DNA of 46,553 bases from Clostridia bacterium (GTDB lineage Bacteria; Bacillota; Clostridia; Oscillospirales; CAG-272), in NCBI GenBank assembly GCA_017456905.1, contig JAFTIL010000011.1, positions 1-46,553 on the forward strand, given 5' to 3'. Both the position numbers and the translations under genes were made by a program. Under the pieces are notes generated by a model. That model saw nothing but the letters and a program-made list of their open reading frames with translations, had not been told where the DNA came from and did not search any database. Within the stretch, counting starts at the first letter, position 1; each line of letters starts with the position of its first letter. Below, piece by piece: positions 2,653 through 46,553 of the stretch.

Positions 2653-5600
2653 TTACCAGTCGAGCTGCTTCTTATTCAACAGGTCAGCCTTAATGAGCAG
2701 CAGATCCGCTGCCGTAATCTTGCCGTCACCGTTGACGTCACAAACGAGCATCTGCTCATCGGTCAGCTTGGCACCTTCCTTACCCAGGGCGGCCTTCTGC
2801 AGATTGAGCACGTCCTCGTTTTCGAGGATACTGTCACCGTCAAAGTCGCCGGCTACGACAATCTTCACTTCGGTTACACCCTGGGGTATTGCGAAGTTGT
2901 ACGAGGATGCCGTATCTGTGGTAGGATCCACTTGGGCCTCGATGATGCAGAGCTTGCCGTCCGCATCCTTATACATGACCTTACAAGTGATCTCGGAGGT
3001 GATCGTCAGCACGCGGCCGATCTTCTCGAGGTTCTCGATCTGGGACTCACCTGCGTTCTCGCCTTCGGTGGGAATGGTGGCGTCGATGATGGTGACGTTG
3101 CCGGTCAGAAGGTCGGCCGTCAGGCGGCCGTATTCGTCGAAGCTATATGTGCCGGCAGGTACATAGCCATTGGTCCAGTCTGCACCGGTACTGTCAACAC
3201 CAATCCACTTGTCTTCATTTACCGCAATGGCACCGTCATTATTCACAAAGTAATAATAGCCGTCGGTGCCTTGGGTAAGACCCTTATGCCAAGTAGAACC
3301 GTCATAACGAGGATAGATGGTCGCACTATAAAGAACACCGTTCATAAAGAACATCTTTTTGCCGTCGATATCTACGGGGCCGGCATAATCTTTCATGAGA
3401 GCTCCGCGGTCATCGAAGAGACAGGTTACCATATCCTCCTGCTTCTCGCTGGGATAGTTCTTAATATAGGACGCGTATCCCGTAGTCACATAGTAAGGAT
3501 AGTTCTTAGTTACGTGGTAGGTCTCGCCTTCCACCTCGAACCAGCATGCCTTCTTCCAGTCGCCTGCCCATCTGTAGCGCCAGCCGGTCACGCCCTGGTA
3601 GGTATCCTGTTCCCAGGCACCCTTGACAAGAACGTGGTCCTCGAAAGTATACGTATACCACTTTGTCTGCCAGGAGTTTGCAGCTTCATAGATTGCAAAT
3701 TCTCCGTCAACAGCCTTACCGGTATCGGGATGGAAATAATAGTTCTTGCCGTCGATCTGCTGCCAGCCTGTCTGTGCTACGCCGAGGACAGCATAGTAGA
3801 GATCATCGCCGATCTCAACGAGTCCGTTAAAGCCCTGCTCGCTGACAAGCTTACCGGTTTCGTCAAACTCATAGAATCTGTTCTGAGTGGGATCTTTACG
3901 GTCGGTAACGAGCTGAATGCCGGTTACGGGTTCATTCTTTACGTAATAGAAATAATCTTTACCTTCTTCGTGCCAGCCGTTGAGGACTTCGGTACTGAGA
4001 AGATATGCATCTGCGAAGTCAACGTACTGGCCGGAGAATTTAGCACCCTTATCGTTGTTGGTCTCACTTCCTGTATCTCCGCCTGCAGAGGGATCGCTGA
4101 AATCGCTGCGGCAGTCTTCTTCGTGGATATAAGGAACAAGACCGTACTTAGCCTGGTTTGAAGGATCATTGGCGAAGGAATAGAGGGAGCTTGCCGCAAG
4201 ATAGATATCATAGGAAACGGTACCGTTGTTGGTAATAGCGATCTTATTGTCGTAATAAGCAGCGGTATCCTTTACGGTTGCCTTGATACCTGTGAGGATA
4301 CACAGGGAGTTTGCGGTGGCAGGGTCGATGGGCTGAGACTGATTGACCCAGTTGCAAACGATGGTAAGCACGTTATTTTCGTCGAGATTTATGGTCGTGG
4401 GGGTGAAATATTCGGTAAGGATCTTAAGATTCGAGATATCCACGTTCAGATCCTTACTGAATTCCGCTTTGATGGTGACGCGGGTCTGTGTGCATACACG
4501 CTCAGCGAGCTGCAACAGATAGTCCCACGCGGTGGCATTCTCAGTGTACGTGGGAAGCATAGACTTCATAGGCTCAAGCTGGGCCGGGAAGTCAATGGCG
4601 GTCATATCGAGACCGAAGGTATAGTCGATCACAATGGGGGAATCGGGGTCGGAAACGCGGTAAAGCTGGTTATCCAGGGTTTTGGCGTTTTCGATATCGC
4701 GGATCCACGCAAAGGAACGGTTACCCATGGTTGCGTTTGCGAAATCGAAGGTGGCTTCATCTTTGTAATAGAGGTTGATAGTTCCAAATTTTACAATTTC
4801 ACTATCCGCGGTAGCAACGACCGCAATTATATTGGCGATACGGATACCCTTTGTATCATCCCCTGTAAACGTCATTCCGTCAATAATGCCTGCGTCTGAA
4901 ACAAGATCTTCAGTATCAGCAAACAACACGATAGCATCAACCAGAGGCGTAAACGCAACAGGTTTTCCCTGATACCATACGGTGACACCAATTTCCTTAG
5001 GCGTTCCGTAAATCGCGGTGATTCTGTCCTCAGCAAACTTGATGTCATCGGGGATGACAACATTGATGGTCTTTTCGCCCGCAACCTCACCGTCCACGAT
5101 AAACTGAACCTTTACGGTGCCGTAATCCAGTGCGGTAAAGAGACCGTTTTCATCGATGGAGGCGATAGTTGTGTCAGAAACTTGCCAGTATGCGCCGTCG
5201 GGAATCACAGCGGCGTTACCCGTGTTACTGACGCCCTGCACGCTGAACTGCATGGAGGTGCCGGCGGTGATGTATTCATAGTCAGAGGCAATGATTGCGC
5301 TATCGAACGCGGTAGAGGGAGCTGCGGTCGATACAGCGACGAGAGAGGTAGATACTCTTCTCTCGTAACCGTCGGAAGGAACGTTGACAAGCTCGATATC
5401 ATCCTTACCTGCGGGCTTGGAAAGATATGTGGTGGATCCGCCGCCGTCGAGATTGACTGCCTGTACGCAACCTGCCTCAAGCATGATCTGGGCGATCTCT
5501 TCCATTGCGCCGCCTGCGGAACGGGGCAGCTGACGGCCGTCAAGAACCATCATGACTACCTTGCCCTCAGCAGTGATACCGATAGCGGTACGGCTGGCAC

Positions 5601-7137
5601 GGTTTGCGGTGTAGTTTGCGCTCTTAGTTACGCAAACCTTACCGTCTTTAACAAGAACGGAACCGAATGCCTGAATAGCTTCCTTGACCTGACCCGCTTC
5701 AGCGAGTTCTTTGTATTTAGCCTGATCACCGATCACTGCTGTGCCGTCCTGAAGGATAGCAAAGAAGCCGGGTGCGCCTACGGGATAGTACTCAACGCCC
5801 TGCATAACTACAAGGCCAGAGGGAACGCCGGTTGTGATATTGTAGCCTGCACCGTTGGTAGCAACGATGGGATAGAAGTTTTCCTTATCCTTGTTATTCT
5901 TTACAAGAGCATCAACCTGATCACGAACGGTTTGAAGACCGATGTTACTTCCCGTGGGAGCTGCGTTATTGTTGTAGTTAACCAGAAGGTCAACGTCGTC
6001 ACGTGTAACGTCAACGGTTGCAACGTAGTAAACGATCTGCTTGCCGTCTACGGTCTGCGCGTAGTTGATATCCTGTGTGATACCGGGGGCAAGAATAGAA
6101 CTCTCGGTAGAAAAGACAGAATAATAACCGTTTGATGCGGCATCATCGCTCGGAGTGCCTTCGACAAGCTGTCCCTGAGCCTGGCTATAAATGTAATCAG
6201 CTACGGCATAGCAACAAGCCTCGCGAAGTGCGCTGTAAGAAGACAAGCCGCGCTTTGCTTCGAGAATGCTGATACCTACGTCGGTAGAATAGGATTCGAA
6301 GATTGCTTTACGTACCGCTTCTTTGCTATCTGCAACGGCAAAACGGTTGTTCATAAAGTATACGGTACGGTCGATATCGTTGAGGTAAGTATCATCAGCT
6401 TTCTTACTAAAATAAGATTCCATAAGCTCGCTGAAGGTCTTTTCGCCGTTTGCCTTCTTGTACTCGGAAACAAGATAGTAAGCGTCCATATCACCCCAGA
6501 AGTCGTCCCAGCCGAATGCGCCGGAAGCGTCAACTCCGAAGCAATGCTCCTGAACATAGGCTGCCATTTCATTAACATCAATCTCACCATCACCATCAGC
6601 ATCAGCATTCGCGTTGATATCATCAAGATTTGCTACGCTGTACTGAAGCAGGTCGCAGATATCTCCCGCCCAACCGGACAGGTCTGCAGAACCGGGAGCC
6701 ACATAGGAGATGTTCATACAGCCAAACATGTGACCGAAGTCAACCTTGTTGCCGTTAGGGAGCTTAAAATCGCTAATTACGATATCCTTCAGGTTCATAG
6801 CGGTAGTACCCTTTTCGGCATCCTGAGCCTCTACGTAGCTCGTAAAACCTGTGTTTTCGTAGCCGGCAAGGGTGTTCCAGTTATCATCCTGGTATCTCTC
6901 AACACCGGTACGAATGAAGTTCAGTACAAGCTCACCGGGATCTTTTCCGTAGATTTCAGCAGCATATTCTGCTGCGTAGCCCTCAAGAACCTTGAGATTC
7001 GTCATAAAATCTGCATAATTCGTCACACTTCCGCTTTCCACATCTGTTGCATCTTCGGCAACGACAGGAATGGATGTGATGATCATTAAAACAGCCAGAA
7101 TGAATGCTATCAATCTTTGCGAATTTTTCTTGAACAT
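2653..7137 (-). CDS. Secreted phosphodiester glycosidase (NAGPA-like) with Ig-like, cell-wall-binding-like and dockerin modules
   Basis: This is a 1494-aa multidomain exoprotein. Residues 1-28 are a signal peptide. An EF-hand-like loop lies at about 178-190 (DADGDGEIDVNE). Residues 335-605 match the phosphodiester glycosidase/NAGPA fold, with ATNGAGYN, a conserved DGR (about 533) and the VNLDGGGSTT motif (about 561-570). A BIG2-like Ig domain follows (610-695). Residues about 1060-1330 carry aromatic choline-binding-like repeats (GWQQIDGKNYYFHPDTGKA, DIDGKKMFFMNGVLY). The last 65 residues are a type I dockerin with two Ca-binding loops (DFDGDSILENED and DVNGDGKITAAD). NAGPA enzymes remove terminal GlcNAc from phosphodiesters, so action on a phosphate-linked glycan is plausible. 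It lies 80 bp downstream of the LicD and glycosyltransferase genes. The true substrate is unknown. Confidence 0.85.
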   Translation of the reverse strand: MFKKNSQRLIAFILAVLMIITSIPVVAEDATDVESGSVTNYADFMTNLKVLEGYAAEYAAEIYGKDPGELVLNFIRTGVERYQDDNWNTLAGYENTGFTSYVEAQDAEKGTTAMNLKDIVISDFKLPNGNKVDFGHMFGCMNISYVAPGSADLSGWAGDICDLLQYSVANLDDINANADADGDGEIDVNEMAAYVQEHCFGVDASGAFGWDDFWGDMDAYYLVSEYKKANGEKTFSELMESYFSKKADDTYLNDIDRTVYFMNNRFAVADSKEAVRKAIFESYSTDVGISILEAKRGLSSYSALREACCYAVADYIYSQAQGQLVEGTPSDDAASNGYYSVFSTESSILAPGITQDINYAQTVDGKQIVYYVATVDVTRDDVDLLVNYNNNAAPTGSNIGLQTVRDQVDALVKNNKDKENFYPIVATNGAGYNITTGVPSGLVVMQGVEYYPVGAPGFFAILQDGTAVIGDQAKYKELAEAGQVKEAIQAFGSVLVKDGKVCVTKSANYTANRASRTAIGITAEGKVVMMVLDGRQLPRSAGGAMEEIAQIMLEAGCVQAVNLDGGGSTTYLSKPAGKDDIELVNVPSDGYERRVSTSLVAVSTAAPSTAFDSAIIASDYEYITAGTSMQFSVQGVSNTGNAAVIPDGAYWQVSDTTIASIDENGLFTALDYGTVKVQFIVDGEVAGEKTINVVIPDDIKFAEDRITAIYGTPKEIGVTVWYQGKPVAFTPLVDAIVLFADTEDLVSDAGIIDGMTFTGDDTKGIRIANIIAVVATADSEIVKFGTINLYYKDEATFDFANATMGNRSFAWIRDIENAKTLDNQLYRVSDPDSPIVIDYTFGLDMTAIDFPAQLEPMKSMLPTYTENATAWDYLLQLAERVCTQTRVTIKAEFSKDLNVDISNLKILTEYFTPTTINLDENNVLTIVCNWVNQSQPIDPATANSLCILTGIKATVKDTAAYYDNKIAITNNGTVSYDIYLAASSLYSFANDPSNQAKYGLVPYIHEEDCRSDFSDPSAGGDTGSETNNDKGAKFSGQYVDFADAYLLSTEVLNGWHEEGKDYFYYVKNEPVTGIQLVTDRKDPTQNRFYEFDETGKLVSEQGFNGLVEIGDDLYYAVLGVAQTGWQQIDGKNYYFHPDTGKAVDGEFAIYEAANSWQTKWYTYTFEDHVLVKGAWEQDTYQGVTGWRYRWAGDWKKACWFEVEGETYHVTKNYPYYVTTGYASYIKNYPSEKQEDMVTCLFDDRGALMKDYAGPVDIDGKKMFFMNGVLYSATIYPRYDGSTWHKGLTQGTDGYYYFVNNDGAIAVNEDKWIGVDSTGADWTNGYVPAGTYSFDEYGRLTADLLTGNVTIIDATIPTEGENAGESQIENLEKIGRVLTITSEITCKVMYKDADGKLCIIEAQVDPTTDTASSYNFAIPQGVTEVKIVVAGDFDGDSILENEDVLNLQKAALGKEGAKLTDEQMLVCDVNGDGKITAADLLLIKADLLNKKQLDW

Positions 7138-16745: not shown

Positions 16746-16880
16746 ATCAATCATCCAGCTTCATATCCCCATACTTGATCCATTCCAGCTTTCGCATGAT
16801 CTCGGAAAGCAGGAGGGACAGGACAGCGGGGAGGACGAGGCAACACAGCACAAGGCCTGCCCACATCATGGGGGAATGCT
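16746..16880 (-). pseudogene. 3' remnant of a PTS IIC-type permease paralogue
   Basis: On the minus strand, 132 bp (16749-16880) align with 19018-19149 of the intact permease gene. I count three differences: a silent change in Leu, CTT (Leu) for TTT (Phe), and a silent change in Pro. The reading frame ends with the same KLDD but with TGA instead of TAA. Homology stops abruptly at 16880, so the 5' part of about 350 codons is missing. The pattern of mostly silent changes suggests a once-functional paralogue rather than a fresh copying error. Confidence 0.85.
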
Positions 16881-16932
16881 GACATAAAGATAAAGAAAAT
16901 CCTCGCAACATAAAGAAAAATCCCCTGGCCTA

Positions 16933-16961
16933 TTGCAATCAAATGAAAAATGTGGTATAAT
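16933..16961 (+). promoter_or_regulatory. Promoter of the DUF554/PTS gene pair
   Basis: -35 TTGCAA (16933-16938), 17-nt spacer, -10 TATAAT (16956-16961). It lies about 70 bp upstream of the ATG, which is preceded by CAAGGAGAA. Confidence 0.75.
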
Positions 16962-17029
16962 AATTTTGATTATTCAAAAGATAACTCCGCTTTGCGCGGA
17001 AATCCATATGCCAAGGAGAACAGAACTCA

Positions 17030-17917
17030 ATGAAGGGTATCGGTATCCTCGTCAATATTCTGGCCGTCCTGGTGGGCGGCGGCTTCGGACTTATGTTCAG
17101 GGGAAAGCTTAAAATAAGCCTTCAAAAACTTTTATACCGTACGATGGGTCTCGCCGTCATGGCGGTCGCTGCCTATGAATTCATACAGCATTATTTCGTC
17201 ATGTCGAGCGGCGAAGTGGAGCTTACAGGTTCTCTTTTGGTCATCATGGCATTGGTGGTGGGTGGCCTGATTGGCTATCTCTTTAACATCAGCGGCGGCA
17301 TTACCGCTATCGGTAAGACCTTGTCAAAAAAGGATGAGGATGAGAAAGCCAAGGAAAGTGCAAGACTGGATCGCCTGTCCCGTGCCGTGGAGCTGTCTGT
17401 GGAAAAGGATATGAAGCCACCGAAGGTCTCTTTCCTGGATAAGCTTCCTACCTACGCCGCGCCTGCACCCATGACGAACAACGCCTATGCTGACGGCTTC
17501 CTGATCGGAATTGTCCTTTTCTGCGCCAATTCCATGCTGTTCAATGGCGTTATGGCTGACAGCTCATCGGGAGAGACAACCCTTCTCCTCGTCAAATCCG
17601 TTATTGACTTTGTAGCTTGCTTTCTCCTATGCTCAAGCTTTGGCTCGGGGGCTATGTACGCCACCATCCCCATGGCTGTGTTGGAGGTTTTGATCTTTGG
17701 CGTTAATCTGGTTTTGCCTAATTTTACCGCCGAATTCTTTGATCCCACCCTCACGGGGCAGATCTCGGTGATCGGTGCCGTGATCCTCCTGGTCCTCGGC
17801 ATTCAGATGGCCTTTGATCGGAAGAGGCCTAAGGCCGCCGATCTGTTGCCGGCATATCTTATCCCCCTCCTTTATTACGGTATCCTGTTTGTGGTGAATC
17901 TTTTCCTGAGTGATTGA
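17030..17917 (+). CDS. DUF554 family membrane protein
   Basis: This 295-aa polytopic membrane protein begins with GILVNILAVLVGGGFGLMFRGKL, the DUF554 signature start. It has about seven hydrophobic segments and the usual second-half pattern (ADGFLIGIVLFCANSMLFNG, then MALEVLIFGVNL-type segments). A charged insert of about 50 residues (about 98-150, KKDEDEKAKES) separates the two halves and is longer than in typical members. The role of the family is unknown; a transporter is often assumed. It is followed by a 49-bp gap and the permease gene, so the two are likely cotranscribed. Confidence 0.85.
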   Translation: MKGIGILVNILAVLVGGGFGLMFRGKLKISLQKLLYRTMGLAVMAVAAYEFIQHYFVMSSGEVELTGSLLVIMALVVGGLIGYLFNISGGITAIGKTLSKKDEDEKAKESARLDRLSRAVELSVEKDMKPPKVSFLDKLPTYAAPAPMTNNAYADGFLIGIVLFCANSMLFNGVMADSSSGETTLLLVKSVIDFVACFLLCSSFGSGAMYATIPMAVLEVLIFGVNLVLPNFTAEFFDPTLTGQISVIGAVILLVLGIQMAFDRKRPKAADLLPAYLIPLLYYGILFVVNLFLSD

Positions 17918-17966
17918 CCGCCGCAAACTGTGTATAACAATCAAAAAACTAAGGAAGTGATGTTTC

Positions 17967-19151
17967 ATGGCTAAAGGAAAGTATAGCCAAAGACGCAAAG
18001 ACGAGCAAGCAGAGCTCAAACGACAGAAAAAGGTAGCCGTAAAAAACAAGCTGAAGGGCTTGCCCCGCAGGTATTTCATCGACGCCATGGGCGCCATGGC
18101 TTTGGGACTTTTCGCCTCTCTGCTGATCGGCACCATTTTTGACACCCTTGGAAATTACATACCCTGGCTTTTTCTCAAGACCATTGCCTCCTACGCCAAG
18201 CAAGCCACTGGTATGGCCATCGGCGTAGCCATCGCCCATAAGCTGGGGGCCCATCCCCTGGTCATGTTCTCCTGTGCAGGCGTGGGCGCGCTGTCTAACG
18301 CTATGGGGGCTGTCATCGACGGTGGAAAGATCCTCGCTTGGGCAGTTACCGCAGGAACGGGCGAAGGCGTGTTCTACAGCGCAGGCCCCGCAGGTGCCTT
18401 CTTTGCGGTCATTATCGCCGCCGAGATCGGTATGCTGGTTTCTAAAAAGACCCCCGTGGATATCCTCGTCACCCCCGTGGTCACCCTGCTGGTGGGCTTT
18501 GGCGCGGCCTGGGTCTTTTGCCCCGCCGTCTCCTATATCATGTATTATCTCGGCATCTTCATTGCCACCGCCACCACCTTCCAGCCCCTCATCATGGGTA
18601 TCGTGGTGTCGGTCGTGGTGGGTATCATCCTTACCTTGCCCATTTCCAGCGCGGCCATTTGTGCCATGATCTTTTCCTCCTCGGCCTATGAGGTCGCCTG
18701 TATCAACGGCACGGAGGAAGGATTTTTGCTGGCAGGCGGTGCCGCCGTGGTGGGCTGTTGCGCCCAGATGGTGGGCTTTGCCGTCAGTAGTTTCCGCGAA
18801 AATAAATGGGGGGGCCTGGTTTCCCAAGGTCTTGGTACCTCCATGCTCCAGATGGGCAACATCTGCCGCCGTCCCCAGATATGGATCCCCCCGACCCTGG
18901 CCGCCGCCATCATCGGCCCTCTTTCCACCATGGTCTTCAAGCTGGAGTGCATGGGCGTGGCCGCCGGTATGGGTACCTGCGGCATGGTTGGCCCCATCGG
19001 CGTGATCTCAGCCATGGAGCATTCCCCTATGATGTGGGCAGGCCTTGTGCTGTGTTGCCTCGTCCTCCCCGCTGTCCTGTCCCTCCTGTTTTCCGAGATC
19101 ATGCGAAAGCTGGAATGGATCAAGTATGGGGATATGAAGTTGGATGATTAA
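17967..19151 (+). CDS. PTS sugar transporter IIC-type permease (PTS_EIIC_2)
   Basis: This 394-aa membrane protein matches the PTS_EIIC_2 family. It has a lysine/arginine-rich cytoplasmic N-terminus (1-35), then about nine membrane segments. Family stretches visible include AGPAGAFFAVIIAAEIG, LPISSAAICAMIF, CCAQMVGFAVSSFREN, GLGTSMLQMGNI and WIPPTLAAAIIGPL. No IIA, IIB, HPr or EI gene is nearby, so sugar phosphorylation through this protein is uncertain; these orphan IIC proteins may move other small molecules. A near-identical 3' fragment lies 2.1 kb upstream in inverted orientation. Confidence 0.88.
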   Translation: MAKGKYSQRRKDEQAELKRQKKVAVKNKLKGLPRRYFIDAMGAMALGLFASLLIGTIFDTLGNYIPWLFLKTIASYAKQATGMAIGVAIAHKLGAHPLVMFSCAGVGALSNAMGAVIDGGKILAWAVTAGTGEGVFYSAGPAGAFFAVIIAAEIGMLVSKKTPVDILVTPVVTLLVGFGAAWVFCPAVSYIMYYLGIFIATATTFQPLIMGIVVSVVVGIILTLPISSAAICAMIFSSSAYEVACINGTEEGFLLAGGAAVVGCCAQMVGFAVSSFRENKWGGLVSQGLGTSMLQMGNICRRPQIWIPPTLAAAIIGPLSTMVFKLECMGVAAGMGTCGMVGPIGVISAMEHSPMMWAGLVLCCLVLPAVLSLLFSEIMRKLEWIKYGDMKLDD

Positions 19152-19181
19152 GTATTAAGTAACCTCTAAGTATAAACCTAT

Positions 19182-19222
19182 CAACACCCCCTTCCATCGT
19201 GGAAAGGGGTGTTGCCGCTTTT
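19182..19222 (+). terminator. Terminator after the permease gene
   Basis: CAACACCCC-TTCCA pairs with TGGAA-GGGGTGTTG (19182-19214), followed by CCGCTTTT. The stem is strong; the U-run is short. Confidence 0.75.
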
Positions 19223-19248
19223 ATACAGAAGATAAAAGGCCCGTAACT

Positions 19249-19307
19249 CTATGTAAGTGAATCAACCTATGGAAACAGAGAGCAACGATGTTTTGGGTGA
19301 TTCATAG
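19249..19307. repeat. Inverted repeat near the left side of the relaxase island
   Basis: TGAATCA (19258-19264) and TGATTCA (19298-19304) form a 7-bp inverted repeat, with CTATG and TAG as partly matching outer flanks. It lies between the permease terminator and the stop of the relaxase gene. It could be a weak terminator for the relaxase transcript or mark the edge of the inserted DNA; neither is proven. Confidence 0.35.
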
Positions 19308-19351
19308 AATGATAAGAATCTGTCGTCTTGCTGACTTTTCAACACGAAGTT

Positions 19352-20833
19352 TTACTTTTCTTTTTCCTGCTTTTTCTTCTTGGCCTGTGTGATGATCTCG
19401 TCGAGACGGCGCTTCCTTTGTTCACCATTGCCTAATGTCTCTTCCCAAAGATCCTCTTCCTTTTCTTGTTTCTTTTTTTCAACCTGCTCGATGATCTCTT
19501 CAAGCCTACGCTTTGTTTCCTTGCAGTCATCAGATATCTCTCTATGTGAATTGATAGCCTGACGGTTGTTTTTAATCAATTCGCGGGTGAATTGCAAACA
19601 CCCTACTAAATCATTCAAAAACTCTTGCGCCTTGTTTCGACGATGGGATGGAATGAGCTCTGCGAGTTTGAGAGCGTTTGATGCTTTTTCTTCGAAAAAA
19701 TTGACTTTCTCATTGAAGGTCTTGAGTTCGGGATGCCACTCTAAATCAAGTGTGAAATGGTTTAAATACTTTTTTATATCAGCAAGAGGCTTTTCATAAG
19801 CATCCACTTCTTCGACCATTTGCTTTAATCTGCGACACCATTCTTTCTCGTCGCGCTCCGCCGCCTCTATCTGCACACGTAACTGATCCAAGTAATTTCC
19901 CATGGAGTCTATCTGTACATTAAGGTCCTCTATCTCCCCGAACAGTTTTGATTTCTCTTCTTGACGGGCATTCAAAGCCAAGATGAGTTCAGACAGTATG
20001 GCTTCCTTTTCGGCAATCTCCATTTTAATTCTCTCATTGATGTACACGTTCTTTTCGTAATCTTCATTACGGCCGACCTTTTTCTCTTTGAATTCCCAAC
20101 CAAAGACTTCTCTTACAGCAACCTCTGCTTTATCCCTTACCTCACCTTGAAGGATTGTGCCCATTGTTATCTCATTGAAAACGGCGGACTTCTTGTTGCG
20201 ACATGCCAATCCATCAGAAGCATCCGGAGTATATTCAACTGGGACACCCACATAATGGATATGGGGGCAGTTTTCGTCCTGGTGGAGTGAAGCACCGGCT
20301 AATATGAACTCGTAATTGGGTCCCTTAAGCCCTTTAATAGTTTCGATCAGGATATACAGCAAAATTTTGCATATGAGCATACGTTTCTCGAAGGTCTGAT
20401 CTTTCCAATCGGTAAAGTCTCCAATTTGAATCAGACCTTCGACTGCGATTTGCTGGCAACGGTTAGCAGAAACTTTTTCAATATAGCTTTCAATTTTCTT
20501 GTGAGGGGTACCCTCGTTTTCCATTTTCTCGTTGTATTTGTCAATGGCATCCTGGAAAGTGCGCTCGTAAATTTGTTTAACAATCTCCACGAGATCAAGG
20601 TACCCTGAAATTTCAACGAGTTCTCCGTCCTTTATGATATAATGTCGATTTAAGTGCTTAAGGTCGAGATTAATCTCGGACTGCAACTTTGCGCTTTCCT
20701 CAGGGGTGTATTCATGATTGTTGTGTTTCTCAACATTCGCCAAGTCCTTCAGTGCCATGATTGAGGTGTTCTTTCCAGATTTTCTATCACGGCTTGCACG
20801 ACCAATGTGATTGGAATATGAAACTTTTCTCAT
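19352..20833 (-). CDS. MobV-family relaxase (Mob_Pre plasmid recombination/mobilisation protein)
   Basis: This 493-aa protein is a predicted site-specific DNA nickase that starts conjugal transfer at an oriT. It has the HUH-type metal motif HQDENCPHIHYVGVP (the HxDE..PHxH form of MobV) and, near the N-terminus, the KHNNHEY segment that fits MobV motif I. The C-terminal 220 residues are mostly charged coiled coil ending in KKKQEKEK. The ATG at 20833 is preferred because GGAGG lies 6 nt upstream; longer versions lack a ribosome site. No replication, recombinase or secretion gene is in the window, so it is an isolated mobilisation gene. It appears more A+T-rich than the operon to its right, consistent with acquisition. 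Confidence 0.88.
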   Translation of the reverse strand: MRKVSYSNHIGRASRDRKSGKNTSIMALKDLANVEKHNNHEYTPEESAKLQSEINLDLKHLNRHYIIKDGELVEISGYLDLVEIVKQIYERTFQDAIDKYNEKMENEGTPHKKIESYIEKVSANRCQQIAVEGLIQIGDFTDWKDQTFEKRMLICKILLYILIETIKGLKGPNYEFILAGASLHQDENCPHIHYVGVPVEYTPDASDGLACRNKKSAVFNEITMGTILQGEVRDKAEVAVREVFGWEFKEKKVGRNEDYEKNVYINERIKMEIAEKEAILSELILALNARQEEKSKLFGEIEDLNVQIDSMGNYLDQLRVQIEAAERDEKEWCRRLKQMVEEVDAYEKPLADIKKYLNHFTLDLEWHPELKTFNEKVNFFEEKASNALKLAELIPSHRRNKAQEFLNDLVGCLQFTRELIKNNRQAINSHREISDDCKETKRRLEEIIEQVEKKKQEKEEDLWEETLGNGEQRKRRLDEIITQAKKKKQEKEK

Positions 20834-20913
20834 CGAAGGCCTCCGTTCTGCAACTGATTGCCAGCGCAAGAAGCCATGAAAGTGTACCGAACAGCAAAGA
20901 TTCTTTTTTTCAT
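20830..20913 (-). CDS. 27-aa leader ORF translationally coupled to the relaxase
   Basis: An ATG at 20913 sits 6 nt after a TTAAGGAG ribosome site. It opens a 27-codon frame beginning MKKRIFAVRYTF and ending NGGLR. Its TGA overlaps the relaxase ATG as ATGA (20830-20833). The relaxase ribosome site lies inside this ORF. The arrangement suggests coupling or a translational control peptide. A TTG at 20917 would fuse this leader in another frame to the relaxase but is only 2 nt from the ribosome site, which is too close. Confidence 0.6.
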   Translation of the reverse strand: MKKRIFAVRYTFMASCAGNQLQNGGLR

Positions 20914-20979
20914 GCAAAACTCCTTAATTAATATGATTTGTTTTTGTTATAGCGGTTTACTATATTATTTCTGCGAATT

Positions 20980-21024
20980 AGAAAGCATTTCATAGTTGCT
21001 GCAACAGCCTATGGAGTGCTTTCT
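20980..21024. repeat. Strong hairpin upstream of the relaxase
   Basis: AGAAAGCA pairs with TGCTTTCT, with inner pairs CATAG/CTATG-like and GCTG/CAGC around CAA. On the plus strand it is followed by TTATTTAT. It lies between the relaxase leader ORF and the structured RNA region. It may be part of an oriT or terminate antisense transcription. Confidence 0.55.
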
Positions 21025-21080
21025 TTATTTATATACAATCAATACGCATCACCTCCTATGCAATAATTTGATAGACAAAC

Positions 21081-21146
21081 AAAAAGTGCAGTCTTCACGA
21101 ATAGCGAGGTAGGAACAACCTCTCCACATTCGTGAAAACTGCACTT
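21081..21146 (-). terminator. Second (downstream) intrinsic terminator of the structured RNA
   Basis: AAGTGCAGT-x-TTCACGAAT (21084-21102) pairs with ATTCGTGAA-x-ACTGCACTT (21128-21146), 18 pairs with one mismatch. A GAGGT/ACCTC stem lies inside. On the minus strand it is followed by TTTTTG (forward 21080-21085). Its left arm shares TCTTCACGAAT with the arm of the first terminator. Confidence 0.7.
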
Positions 21147-21159
21147 GGTGCATTTTATT

Positions 21160-21504
21160 AAAAAAAGCAATCTTCACGAATCCAATTCAATATTGATTCG
21201 CGAAAGACTGCATCCCGCAACCTTCTACCGCGGTGCTAGCGCTAAGTAGAAGCGGCTTCTCGCTTCGGTCGTTTTCAGTCATCCATAGACTACCGTCGTA
21301 TCTATTTGGATATGTAGACCGCTGACTGGCTGCATTACGGGGCGTCCCCCTGCGCTCGGCGCTCTAATGTTTGAGTATACTAAGAAATGCACTATTCTCA
21401 AACTTACACCTTGGCTGCCTTATTGTTCATGATTAAGCATGGGCAATTGCTCCTTTGGTAAATACAACTTATGTATCGCTTTCAAAGTGAGACAATTTTG
21501 CTTC
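21160..21504 (-). ncRNA. Candidate ~345-nt structured noncoding RNA
   Basis: Minus strand. It begins just after a consensus promoter (21511-21539) and ends at a hairpin (21167-21182 with 21195-21211) followed by seven U's (forward 21160-21166). Between them, consecutive stem-loops are visible. GTTTGAG/CTCAAAC lies at 21369-21403. A three-way junction closed by CATTA/TAATG (21333-21337 with 21365-21369) holds the GGGG-CGT-CCCC and GCGC-TCG-GCGC hairpins. An imperfect ATCC..TAC/GTA..GGAT hairpin sits near 21280-21312, flanked by CAGTC/GACTG. CTTCTAC/GTAGAAG lies at 21222-21252. A 6-codon ORF with an AAAGGAG site lies near its 5' end (about 21430). I do not recognise it as RNase P, tmRNA, SRP, 6S or a known riboswitch. 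An oriT role is an alternative. Confidence 0.5.
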
Positions 21505-21510
21505 GCCTCT

Positions 21511-21539
21511 ATTATAACACAAATTATTAAAAAATGCAA
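21511..21539 (-). promoter_or_regulatory. Promoter of the candidate structured RNA
   Basis: Minus strand: -35 TTGCAT (21534-21539), 17-nt spacer, -10 TATAAT (21511-21516). It diverges from the pncB promoter 55 bp away. Confidence 0.7.
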
Positions 21540-21594
21540 TAATAATATAAAAAATGTTTATATTTATTCTATATTCAGAATTTTTCGCTTTCCC

Positions 21595-21623
21595 TTGACA
21601 TCTCGGCTTCAACGAGGTATAAT
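21595..21623 (+). promoter_or_regulatory. Promoter of the pncB operon
   Basis: Perfect consensus: -35 TTGACA (21595-21600), 17-nt spacer, -10 TATAAT (21618-21623). The spacer carries a small inverted repeat CTCG/CGAG. It is followed by an AAAGGA ribosome site and the ATG at 21685. Confidence 0.88.
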
Positions 21624-21684
21624 AATAGAGATGTAATGTTAATGACGCCGACCTCTTGGGTACGGCAAGAAAGGAATTTTCAAA

Positions 21685-23136
21685 ATGAAGGACATTTCCC
21701 GCAACCTTACCATGCTCTGTGATTTTTACGAGCTCACCATGTCCAACGGCTATTTTAAGACGGGTCTTAAGGATCGTATCGTCTATTTCGACGTATTCTA
21801 CCGCAAGAACCCCGATCAGGGTGGCTTTGCCGTAGTAGCAGGTCTTGAGCAGATCGTGGAGTATATTCAAAATCTTCATTTCGACGAGAACGATATCAAT
21901 TATCTTCGTTCCAAGAATCTGTTCGACGAGGATTTTCTCGCTTATCTTGCCGACTTTACCTTTACGGGTGACATCTGGGCTGTACCCGAGGGAACCTACG
22001 TATTCCCCGGAGAGCCTCTTATGACCGTTCGTGCCCCTGCCATCCAGGCACAGTTTATTGAGACCTACGTGCTCATGGTCATCAACCATGAGTCCCTCAT
22101 CGCTACCAAGGCATCCCGTCTGACGAGAGCCGCCAAGGGACGTGCCGTCAGCGAATTCGGCTCCCGACGCGCCCAAGGAGCGGATGCGGCCATTCTCGGC
22201 GCCCGCGCCGCTTACATTGGTGGCGTGAACAGCACCGCTTGCACCATCGCCGACGAGGTCTACGGTGTTCCCGCCTCGGGCACCATGGCTCACGCTTGGG
22301 TACAGATGTTTGACGATGAATACACCGCGTTCAAGACATACTGTGAACTGTATCCCACCAATGCCACCCTGCTCATCGACACCTACAACGTCATGGAATC
22401 TGGTGTTCCCAACGCCATCCGCGCCTTTGAAGAGGTGCTGAAGCCCATGGGTATCACCAAGTGCGGCGTGCGTCTGGACTCGGGTGACATTGCCTACCTG
22501 TCCAAAAAGGTACGCAAGGCTTTGGACGAGGCAGGCTGGTTTGACTGCAAGATCATTGTGTCCAACTCTTTGGACGAATATATCATCCGTGAGCTCATCC
22601 GCCAGGGCGCGGCTGTGGATGCTTTCGGCGTAGGCGAGCGTCTCATCACCGCCAAGAGCGATCCCGTCTTCGGCGGTGTCTACAAGCTCTGCGCCGTGGA
22701 GGATCCCGACGGCACCATTGTACCTCGCATCAAAATCAGCGAGAACGTGGGCAAGATCACAACCCCCCACTTCAAGAAGGTGTACCGTCTTCGCGGACGT
22801 GACACGGGCAAAGCCGAGGCCGACCTCATCTGTTTGCACGACGAGGTCGTTGACGACAGCCAGCCCATTGAGATCTTTGATCCCATCAACACCTGGAAGC
22901 GCAAGACCCTCACCAATTATACCGCCACTGAACTGCTCGTTCCCATCTTCAAGCACGGCAAGCTGGTATACGATCTGCCCTCTTTGGAGGACATCCGCCG
23001 CCATTGTCAGGAGGAGCGCGAGGGGATGTGGGAGGAAGTTCGCCGCTTCACTAACCCCCACGACTATTACGTTGACCTTTCCCAGAAGCTGTGGGATATT
23101 AAGCACAGCTTGTTGAATAAGAGAAACAAGGGATAA
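21685..23136 (+). CDS. pncB: Nicotinate phosphoribosyltransferase
   Basis: This 483-aa cytoplasmic enzyme joins nicotinate to PRPP, with ATP use, to make nicotinate mononucleotide in NAD salvage. The visible family motifs are DFYELTMSNGYF (14-25), EFGSRRAQG (about 157-165), the regulatory histidine in SGTMAHAWVQMF (about 199-210), and RLDSGDIAYLS (about 265-275). Length is as expected for the bacterial enzyme. It is the first gene of a seven-gene plus-strand run that ends at the terminator at 27967. The uracil-DNA glycosylase gene follows after 10 bp. Confidence 0.97.
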   Translation: MKDISRNLTMLCDFYELTMSNGYFKTGLKDRIVYFDVFYRKNPDQGGFAVVAGLEQIVEYIQNLHFDENDINYLRSKNLFDEDFLAYLADFTFTGDIWAVPEGTYVFPGEPLMTVRAPAIQAQFIETYVLMVINHESLIATKASRLTRAAKGRAVSEFGSRRAQGADAAILGARAAYIGGVNSTACTIADEVYGVPASGTMAHAWVQMFDDEYTAFKTYCELYPTNATLLIDTYNVMESGVPNAIRAFEEVLKPMGITKCGVRLDSGDIAYLSKKVRKALDEAGWFDCKIIVSNSLDEYIIRELIRQGAAVDAFGVGERLITAKSDPVFGGVYKLCAVEDPDGTIVPRIKISENVGKITTPHFKKVYRLRGRDTGKAEADLICLHDEVVDDSQPIEIFDPINTWKRKTLTNYTATELLVPIFKHGKLVYDLPSLEDIRRHCQEEREGMWEEVRRFTNPHDYYVDLSQKLWDIKHSLLNKRNKG

Positions 23137-32118: not shown

Positions 32119-34527
<2,409 letters not shown>

Positions 34528-34732: not shown

Positions 34733-34981
34733 AAAAAAAGCCTCTGAAAAATCAGAGACGGGAAACACCCGCGGTACCACTCCGCTTGACACGCCCATAG
34801 AGAGCCTGCCCACTTGACCTCGGTAACGGTGAGTACCGTTCTGCCCTACCCTGCTTATGCCGCAGATCGAACAGACCGCTCGGGGGTGAGATGGACAGCC
34901 TATCCTGCCGTGTCACACCAAACCACGGCTCTCTTGAAGGACTCGGATATACAATGCCCCGTCACAGCGTTTTTGAATAAC
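34733..34981 (-). ncRNA. T-box leader (tRNA-Leu sensing) of leuS
   Basis: The minus-strand transcript has stem I features (AGAGAGCC, GGTGTGA, then CCCCCGAGC). It also has the conserved antiterminator bulge (AGTGGTACCGCGGGT, forward 34768-34783). An intrinsic terminator CTCTGA/TCAGAG ends in seven U's (34733-34759). A CTC leucine codon in the CATCTCACC context (forward 34888-34890) is the likely specifier. In this family uncharged tRNA binds and stops termination. Assignment to leucine fits the downstream gene. Confidence 0.93.
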
Positions 34982-43721: not shown

Positions 43722-46553
43722 TCACTTTTCGCTTGAAGTCTTATAGTTTTGGTCCTTCCCTGTCATAGATAGGCGGGAGGAGCGCAGGGTGGTTTTGACA
43801 CACAGGCATATGGTCCCCGCCCACAGGAAATGCCACAGTCCAAGGATCAGGGAGCTGACGTGGGTCATGATCCCGAGCCCTAAAAGTAAACCAAAGCCTA
43901 CGATGGCCAAAAGGGAGCATATCCATGCCAGCACGCGGGTGCGCCCTGCGACGGTTTTGATACGTCGGCAGGCAACCAACGGGTAAGTCACGTCCACGGC
44001 GCGGCCCGTGGCAAGAATACTGCCGGAGCGACTGTCGCGCTCTTCATCCACGTAATCGGGACGGATCAGATGAATGCGCGGGACTGCGTCGGTGGCCAGG
44101 GGGGTGAGCAGATCAGGGGTCAGGATGGGATCGTAGCTGATCACAGACATGCTGTAGCCCATAGGGCCGAGGGTGCTGACCGCTTGGGCAAAAGAGCGTC
44201 TCGGACGGTATTTGACGGCATAGGCCAATCGGAATTTGCGGTCAAAGGCAAGGTACAGCACACGGCTGTCCTCGGTACGCTTATACATACTCTCCATACT
44301 GACACGAGGGAGCTTGATGCCTCTGCGGTTCAGCGCGTCGTACGTACCCAACAGCACCTCACAGGCCATGTCCAGACGGCGGTCTACCATATACAGGCGC
44401 AAAGTATGCTTATCGGCTTCGGCGATCTCCAGATGGATCCCCTTCAGCTCGTCTTCACGGATAGGATATTCCTCATCATAAAGGGCGAAGCCCAAGAGGG
44501 CAAAGAGACGGTTGGCAATCAGGCGGTATTCTCCTGCCTCGGTGTCTCCCACCATGGTAACGGCCTTCATTTGGGTGGCCTTCATGACGTCATTTGCCTG
44601 GAAATACAGCCGCATGGTCTCGTTCTCAGCGTGTTTACCGGGCGCATACTGCAGAGACGCCTCGGGTGTCAGAACAGCACAGCCGTGGCGACCGATGGTG
44701 CGGTTGACAAGCAGCAGAGGGAGCGTCAAAGCCGGCAGATAGGCGGCGGGAAGCACGGCCAGGTAGGTACCTACAAATGCGGATAAGCCTTGTGTCCAAG
44801 CACCTCGCCCCATGACCACCACCACACCTGCCACGACAAGAGCACCCACCAAAGCTACGCAAGCGGACAAGCCCACGGCACGGGTGTTACTATCGTATTT
44901 CGTCACCTGCAGAAAATAGTCAGCCAGGCGTTCGACCTTACGTACACGGAAGGTGCGTGCATACGCAGAGGCGTCATCGTTGCCATTCTCATGCGTCTCG
45001 GGCGCCACCACATATTTGGACTTGCCCGAAGAAACCGCACGGAAGCACAGTCGCTCAGAGGCAGTTCTGAAGCAATCGCCCAAGCAGGCGAAAAAGAGGA
45101 AAAGAAGGAAAGCGCCGATATACAAACGGATCCCCTGCCCTGCCAGGAAACAGGCCGCCACGGTCCCGGCTAACGTGACCAGAAAGGCGGCTGCGGGCAT
45201 GGCATAGGCCACCGGCTTCAATTCAAAGAGACTGCGGATGCCTTTGGCCAGATAGGTGATCGAAGGAAGGCATCCCAAAACAAGCCACAAAAGAGCCGCA
45301 AGGGGATAGGCGAAGGAATCCGAAAGAAGCTCCATTTTGTCTCCCATGACGGGCGCGAAATCAGGGAAAACGTCAAAAGCCATGCCCACGAGAGCAAAGG
45401 CCAAAGACATCCAAAGACGGAGTTTGCAGAGGATATTGGCACCTGCATATGCCCGTTCTTGCTCACAGGTCTGTTCAGCCGAGACGTATTCCTCGCCGTC
45501 GTAGACCACGGGAGGCGTGTTGCGGATGCTCCCCTTGTCCTTACGATGATACTCTTCTCTGTCACAGGAATTGCTGACACGGGTAATATGCTCGGTCTCC
45601 TCCACTTTTTTCAGCTCGGATTCATAACCAAGATGGAGATACAGGGCCGTATCCTTATCCTTCAGCTCGCCGTCTTCTGTCACAGCGTAGCCCTGCAACC
45701 GCTCCTTTTCAGAGGTTTGCACTTTACTTACAGGCTCGCTGCTTCGGTCGAGAGCGGAGGAAGGCTTTACTGCATCGTTCGCCGTGCGACTGCCCCCCCT
45801 CTTCCCCGAAGATTCGATAGAATCCAGCGTCAGTTGCAAGGGATCGTACCAATGGCGTTGGGGCTTTAACATATCGATCTCAGAGGATTGTGCCTCCATG
45901 ATCTCTTCAGCTTCGGAGGACATCATGACCTCTGCTTCCTCACCCTGGTCGATGAAGAAATTCAGCTGATCCATATCTTCGAGGTCATCATCCTCGCGAT
46001 TAGCCGCGTCTTGGGGATCAAAAACTCTTCGCAAGGCGGCTTTGGTATCGTCATCCAGATGAGATGACAGGAAGTTGTCCAGTATATCGTCGGATGAGCG
46101 ACCGTTGACATCACGGTCATCTCCCGTATGTGCTTGGGTATCGCGTTCGATCTCATCCATCAGGTCGGAGAAGGTAAGAGTACCCTGATAATCGGCATCA
46201 ACGTCATCCAGAACCTCGAATGCCACAACTTTCTCGATCTCTTCGAATTCCTCGATTTCCTCGACTTCTTCGGGTTCCTCGCCCTCCTCGGGTTCCTCGA
46301 TTTCCTCAGGTTCCTCGATTTCTTCGGGTTCCTCGATTTCTTCGGGTTCCTCGATTTCCTCGGGTTCCTCGATTTCCTCGGGTTCCTCGATTTCCTCGGG
46401 TTCCTCGACTTCTTCGGGTTCCTCGATTTCCTCGGGTTCCTCGATTTCCTCGGGTTCCTCGATTTCCTCGGGTTCCTCGATTTCCTCGGGTTCCTCGACT
46501 TCTTCGGGTTCCTCGATTTCCTCGGGTTCCTCGATTTCCTCGGGTTCCTCGAT
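43722..46553 (-). CDS. Membrane protein with degenerate P1B-ATPase-like topology and acidic repeat N-terminus (partial)
   Basis: The frame is open from the right edge to the stop at 43722 (943 codons visible), so the start lies outside. The first 95 visible residues are an acidic hexapeptide repeat (EEPEEI/V). An acidic cytoplasmic region of about 260 residues follows. Eight membrane helices then group 4+2+2. After helix 4 is a cytosolic loop of about 60 residues; after helix 6 ([24 protein letters not shown]) is a 250-residue cytosolic region; helices 7-8 and a short tail end the protein. This is the layout of heavy-metal P-type ATPases. The CPC, TGES and DKTGT motifs are absent; a GDTEAGE stretch lies about where DKTGT would be. 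It is best read as an inactive relative. No close family name is recognised. Confidence 0.65.
46258..46553. repeat. 18-bp tandem repeat coding for EEPEEI/V
   Basis: About 16 units of TCCTCGATTTCCTCGGGT run to the window edge, with a few units differing at one base (ATT/ACT, TTC). On the minus strand each unit codes for six residues, so changes in copy number keep the frame. The array is probably longer than the window shows. Confidence 0.95.

Follow-up and report, generated by a model that had tools for sequence, protein, structure and literature searches.

Can a promoter, a pair of terminators and a number of drawable stem-loops beside a solitary relaxase gene be taken as a new structured RNA, or do they serve the gene next to them? 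The question is raised by 345 nt in contig JAFTIL010000011.1 of a Clostridia bacterium (assembly GCA_017456905.1), of which the entire analyzed stretch of 46,553 nt is called the window here. The original prediction described a promoter-to-terminator unit of no known family beside a lone relaxase, and this description was confirmed by the sequence, by Rfam and by the MOBV type of the relaxase. The further step, to a new structured RNA, could not be upheld, as no homologue turned up in the genomes, plasmids, phages and relaxase loci searched and the core is only mildly more stable than shuffled sequences. The features on which the argument rests are collected in Table 1.

Table 1. Features of the relaxase insertion and of the predicted transcription unit, in window coordinates
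Feature	Position	Strand	Basis or remark
Insertion with relaxase and transcript unit (2.4 kb)	19152..21572		Three sister genomes lack it here
Inverted repeat 3′ of the relaxase, terminator-like by eye	19170..19226	-	Repeat search (I1)
Divergent MOBV/Mob-Pre relaxase	19352..20833	-	Similarity and motif; start by alignment
27-codon frame	20830..20913	-	Frame list; Pfam match absent
Two hairpins between T2 and relaxase, candidate oriT	20948..21024	-	Place and layout like relatives; z -3.75
Terminator T2 (arms 3 and 4), U-rich tail	21081..21146	-	Folding; arm 3 also pairs with T1 arm 2
Terminator T1 (arms 1 and 2), U7 tract	21160..21211	-	Folding
Predicted 345-nt transcript, no family, homologue not found	21160..21504	-	Rfam, BLASTN, covariance model, folding
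Core, multibranch domain (model R2)	21208..21345	-	Covariance model; matches are the two contig copies of the locus alone
Hairpin GTTTGAG...CTCAAAC in core	21369..21403	-	Folding; overlaps 10/12 promoter-like site 21401-21374
Putative 6-codon frame MLNHEQ behind Shine-Dalgarno-like AAAGGAG	21420..21440	-	Sequence
5′ stem, 3′ strand with Shine-Dalgarno-like AAAGGAG (21456-21450)	21446..21496	-	Minimum pair probability 0.75-0.98, by helix
Promoter TTGCAT-17-TATAAT with extended -10 (TGTTATAAT)	21511..21539	-	Sequence and shuffles; predicted start near 21504

The predicted minus-strand promoter is present (TTGCAT at 21539-21534, a spacer of 17 nt, TATAAT at 21516-21511), and a TGT ahead of the -10 makes it an extended -10 element, though its -35 is weak. 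Because only three of the six -35 positions match, it is missing from the simple promoter scan; T1 and T2 are likewise unlisted by the simple terminator rule, despite their strong folding. The element TGnTATAAT occurs once on the minus strand between the relaxase ATG (20833) and 21575, while 75 of 2000 mononucleotide shuffles of this stretch contain at least one. In the region 19150-21700 the promoter scan found six promoter-like sites against 5.6 expected. One of its sites falls within the interval itself (TTGAGA-16-TATACT, 21401-21374, minus strand, 10/12) and may hint at other transcription starts. A 17-nt direct repeat (94%), TTATTAAAAAA(A/T)GCAAT, flanks the unit, with one copy at the -35 region (21524-21540) and the other at the U tract of T1 (21155-21171); it is AT-rich and may have arisen by chance.

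At the other end, both the U-run terminator and the related second one about 80 nt further on were borne out by folding. The T1 hairpin (21211-21167) with its U7 reaches -20.9 kcal/mol (z -4.3) and the stronger T2 hairpin (21146-21084) with its U-rich tail -38.1 kcal/mol (z -7.8). The sequence thereby carries what defines an intrinsically terminated transcription unit, namely a sigma-70 type promoter, a G+C-containing hairpin and a U tract, all on one strand.

Between promoter and terminators the interval carries no convincing gene. That it holds no frame beyond a few codons is literally wrong, as there are minus-strand frames of 40 codons (TTG start) and 31 codons (ATG start), yet a frame as long as 40 codons arises in 208 of 500 shuffles and neither frame has a Pfam match. 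A protein-coding role was rejected on these two grounds. Further downstream, the 27-codon frame of Table 1 is preceded by AAGGAG; its stop codon and the start codon of the relaxase overlap (ATGA), which suggests translational coupling.

The relaxase frame is intact (521 codons) and lies on the same strand as the promoter and the terminators. Its start was placed by alignment to a relative (E 3e-27; MRKVSYSNHI / MTEVSYSAHI). By similarity to MOBV proteins and by the HxDExxPHxH motif it belongs to the MOBV (Mob/Pre) relaxases, of which it is a highly divergent member. In tblastn the best match (1e-15, 27% over 54% of the protein) is a recombination protein whose plasmid is typed as MOBV, and small plasmids of Leptotrichia, Fusobacterium and Enterococcus are among those with such a protein. 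The NCBIfam MobV match stays below its cut-off (20.9 vs 100 bits), Pfam yields nothing at E 0.001 and only unrelated weaker matches, and phmmer against solved structures found no relaxase. With the single protein as query, no relative was found in the genome contigs of 84,980 species; an alignment as query retrieved at least 364, and the best 80 of these were retained. In viral contigs the corresponding numbers are zero and five loci. Among 391 genomes of the class, the closest relatives by E-value are 30-36% identical.

Relaxase and transcription unit lie in one insertion. Homology to three sister genomes (G001, G002 and G004) stops at 19142-19151, at the end of the PTS gene, and resumes at 21573-21591; the flanking genes are present there without 19152-21572. 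The other members of the genus are uninformative on this point, because their two flanking genes lie on different contigs, lie far apart or are unmatched. The relaxase is the one gene of note in the insertion. The adjacent DUF554-PTS block (16881-19149) is inverted here relative to the same three genomes, in which it runs in the opposite direction and adjoins the nicotinate phosphoribosyltransferase gene. A 132-bp inverted duplication marks the block ends (16749-16880 vs 19018-19149, 97.7%). Insertion and inversion have a common breakpoint and may have been one event.

The reading that we favor, if only tentatively, is that the interval is a terminated 5′ leader which throttles expression of the relaxase and works like the prgQ leader of pCF10. 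RNA polymerase would start near 21504, and the short RNA would normally end at T1 (about 345 nt) or at T2 (about 420 nt). Only read-through transcripts would then proceed, via the likely oriT, into the relaxase. Several observations favor this reading. The extended -10 promoter is followed by T1 and T2, both strong and in tandem, and all three share the strand of the relaxase, in an insertion with no other frame of note. There is also no good promoter-like site after T2: from there to the relaxase ATG, the sole site with at least 8/12 matches is ATGAAA-18-AATAAT (9/12), which lacks an extended -10. Promoter scanning of this kind is crude, and a promoter of the relaxase's own may have been missed; the inner 10/12 site likewise weighs against a single start.

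The arms of T1 and T2 are related in sequence and pair across the two hairpins. The energies are -20.5 kcal/mol for arms 1:2, -19.6 for 2:3 (15 pairs) and -28.3 for 3:4. Shuffled 2:3 arms average -5.0 kcal/mol, and the best of 1000 reaches -15.0. If arm 1 were held elsewhere, arm 2 would pair with arm 3 and T2 would be delayed too. As the two terminators share arms in this way, a single upstream event could open both, and the pair would form a two-step gate. Partial transcripts were folded as well. When the nascent RNA has reached 21190, a small hairpin (21225-21202) takes up much of arm 1 and is incompatible with T1, and when arm 1 is blocked in an RNA ending after arm 3, the minimum-energy fold is 2:3. 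Once arm 4 is present, however, 3:4 beats 2:3 even with arm 1 blocked. Duplication of a terminator may by itself have produced the cross-pairing. Arm 1 is also able to pair with arm 4 (-21.7 kcal/mol). The high stability of T2 and its distance from the gene, about 250 nt, also count against the leader reading.

A transcription attenuator or riboswitch would call for an antiterminator that competes with the terminator beyond chance. The 2:3 pairing is strong. A core antiterminator that captures arm 1 would make an attractive switch, but it finds no support in shuffles: arm 1 and the core pair at shuffle level (0.71 vs 0.67 in shuffles, with 144 of 300 as high), and a local duplex between them is equaled in strength in 47 of 500 shuffles. 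The full leader prefers the T1 fold (-104.4) over the antiterminator (-102.6).

The precedent for a throttling leader is pCF10. In the excerpted accounts of that plasmid, a promoter, a short peptide gene and a noncoding region are followed by two successive terminators and then by transfer genes (PMC8265641, PMC6540685); the two potential terminators between prgQ and the next transfer genes are named IRS1 and IRS2 (PMC8265641). The likeness is one of layout, and the leader here is a predicted one. These excerpts call the terminators of pCF10 relatively weak, and a single relaxase gene follows the putative leader here. pCF10 also has the anti-Q antisense RNA, whereas here no plus-strand promoter-like site was found from which an antisense to the leader could start. 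A second comparison is mobM of pMV158 (MOBV1), where Pmob1 overlaps oriT and Pmob2 adjoins it. That locus likewise has control sequences upstream of a MOBV relaxase and on its strand, but the excerpted papers describe neither a 345-nt leader nor tandem terminators, and the present relaxase is highly divergent (PMC5863519, PMC6540685).

T-box leaders also end in a terminator, and the 7-mer ACCGCGG, which we take to be a T-box motif, is found here as well. The Rfam T-box model, however, is silent at the unit even at E 10, while it does find a T-box leader (RF00230) elsewhere in the window, at 34751-34974 on the minus strand (100.7 bits), ahead of a gene that resembles leucyl-tRNA synthetase (32119-34527).

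Two further readings are close rivals of the leader. The first, which we regard as somewhat less likely, is that the element makes a free small RNA of about 345 nt, which would act in trans or as an antisense; T1 would be its true end and T2 a safety terminator, and the relaxase would be expressed separately. The unit has its own promoter and terminator, and strong tandem terminators suggest a finished unit. Against it stand the negative searches for an Rfam family and for homologues. The Infernal search called for by the original prediction gave no Rfam 15 family at the unit at the gathering threshold, the T-box being the sole hit of the window. Up to E 10 (20900-21690) there were seven hits at chance level (best 0.082), all far below gathering; five were microRNA models, three of these on the T2 hairpin. 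T-box, group II intron and tmRNA were rejected without a hit, and circularly permuted group II introns, as excerpted in PMC8637638, were considered as a comparison.

A BLASTN search for homologues in Clostridia genomes and plasmids had also been proposed, and it found none. With 461 bases as query, 145 related genomes (own genome included) returned this locus alone at E 0.001. In 394 genomes of the order (own included) at E up to 1, the matches listed apart from this locus are short and scattered; 243 of these genomes have some match, and the best E among the matches listed, 0.002, was read as chance. The same was concluded for a 53-base, 79% match (E 3e-4) of a sister genome to the AT-rich 21509-21559. 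Fragments of 27-32 nt were all that 72,556 plasmid and 50,697 phage records contained, and viral contigs held no exact 19- or 18-mer. The 138-nt core was also made into a covariance model from its one sequence; with the stricter filters, a search of 395 genomes of the family (own included) detected only two contig copies of this locus. The second copy differs at 1 of 6548 bases and is not independent, because it is a duplicate contig in a genome with 8.8% contamination.

It had also been asked whether copies always sit next to MobV genes. The covariance model matched none of 111 relaxase loci (96 + 15), BLASTN at such loci found no equivalent of the 345-nt unit either. As far as the searches reach, there is thus no conservation outside this strain, an outcome which the original prediction itself had named as speaking against a new RNA. 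With no homologue in any collection that was searched, covariation is not computable, and homologues with compensatory base changes, the mark of a conserved structured RNA class, were not seen there. For the same reason any function and any special RNA fold of the unit are putative, and the missing conservation and covariation count against the leader reading too. In open-licence literature, titles and abstract beginnings on relaxase-linked noncoding RNA or covariation, on MobM antisense or attenuation, on single-strand origins and on relaxase attenuation with tandem terminators mention no such RNA.

The second close rival, which we consider less likely again, is that the interval has no function at the RNA level. 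It would then be an orphan stretch of a mobile insertion with an incidental promoter, and the duplicated hairpins would merely insulate neighbors. Apart from the missing relatives, the case for this reading comes from folding. The 350-nt piece that includes T1 folds better than its shuffles (z -3.7), but without T1 the 293-nt core is at z -2.27, and 4 of 200 shuffles do as well. When 20600-22149 was scanned in 150-nt windows, a strong excess of stability lay over T1 and T2 and a weaker one at 21350-21499 on the minus strand (z -2.6), while within 21200-21400 the z values were 0 to -1 on both strands. The extra stability of the unit is mainly in T1 and T2. A density of perfect stems far above the surroundings had been claimed. 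The interval has four perfect stems of at least 6 bp, a count reached in 94 of 395 other 345-nt windows, and its longest stem, 7 bp, is matched or exceeded in 194 of the 395; an exceptional density is therefore not upheld. Among windows of like G+C, 32 of 120 folds are at least as stable as that of the core.

Ordinary stem density also counts against a free small RNA, for which the mild stability of the core is a point in favor. The absence of any RNA function is in turn hard to square with an extended -10 consensus and strong, well-placed terminators on one strand, or with the z values of the whole core and of its 5′ part. The helices with a pair probability above 0.5 include the 5′ stem over AAAGGAG, the GTTTGAG hairpin, GGGG/CCCC, a 6+4-bp stem, GAAGCG/CGCUUC and T1. 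The three-way junction of the original prediction can be drawn, but within it only the GGGG/CCCC hairpin exceeds 0.5. The GTTTGAG hairpin is reminiscent of a type II CRISPR repeat. This candidate was rejected: exact copies of its 14-mer are confined to this locus, and as many looser matches were found for the control. A Cas9_REC search gave no match, and its positive controls were likewise silent.

It is improbable that the hairpins of the interval act as single-stranded DNA, either as an oriT or as a single-strand origin (sso) in the leading region after transfer, although the interval does adjoin a MOBV relaxase. MOBV loci, mostly of Clostridia, share with this one the HxDExxPHxH motif and hairpins upstream of the relaxase. 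Of 96 such loci examined, 95 gave a frame and 92 an anchor. The common MOBV oriT core AAAAGTGCTTTTGCGTTAC lies within 600 nt upstream in 83 of the 92, a number that does not count independent cases because some contigs were drawn from two collections and appear twice; up to four substitutions were allowed and at most two observed. This core with its flanking inverted repeats is absent from the insertion. The oriT matrix gives at best 2.6 there, as against 34-44 for 15 distinct instances and shuffle maxima of 1.5 on average (95th percentile 8.0). An oriT in the 345 nt, the GTTTGAG hairpin included, was rejected on this matrix.

A better candidate lies outside the interval. Upstream of the gene in six of nine loci of closer relatives (L175-L183), namely L175, L176, L177, L179, L181 and L182, the motif GGGGGTTA was found, on the strand opposite the relaxase in L177 and L179. 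The oriT-like type of these relatives is a two-tier hairpin ending in GGGGG, then TTA, then a second hairpin, and the four loci that were folded (L175, L176, L177 and L181) have both hairpins. These six loci, all of the same class, represent a MOBV group whose oriT-like double hairpins (four of six folded) differ from the common type. A similar layout is seen here between T2 and the relaxase, with two hairpins 15 nt apart and without GGGGGTTA. This double hairpin is likely the oriT, which disfavors the earlier suggestion that the interval hairpins play this part.

A weaker alternative to it is a putative nick site over the -10 region, where TGTGTTATA resembles the pMV158 nick region TGTG/TTATAC in the excerpt of PMC5863519. 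No other 9-mer of this kind occurs in the window, and this one lies at the only coding-strand GTTA in 20833-21575 (15 of 2000 shuffles). The motif was picked after the sequence was seen, and no notable hairpin surrounds it (DNA fold -1.3 kcal/mol, z +0.84). As for a single-strand origin, the excerpted PMC4595007 places a functional sso of ICEBs1 downstream of its oriT and notes that structure may matter for sso function. No similarity of length was found by BLASTN among the 72,556 plasmid records, and hence no match to a known plasmid sso.

Least probable of all is a new structured regulatory RNA on a minimal mobilizable element, which would sense a signal through its multibranch core; arm 1 would be captured, arm 2 would pair with arm 3 and the duplicated terminators would open in one step to switch the relaxase on.

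Some other features of the window may be recorded here. The minus-strand frame at 2653-7137 (1494 codons) encodes a protein that matches phosphodiester glycosidase and dockerin; Ig-like and choline-binding-like matches fall below the cut-off. An 18-bp tandem repeat in 17 copies (46243-46553) reaches the contig end, and the 834-codon minus-strand frame beside it (43722-46226) has no Pfam match.

If the interval is an orphan part of an insertion, the locus would show that a promoter, terminators and drawable stems are insufficient to establish a structured RNA. This lesson follows from a measured stem density equal to the background and a core only mildly better than shuffles. If instead the leader reading is true, transfer of a tiny mobile element would be restrained by transcription termination, through an unusual terminator pair of four arms.
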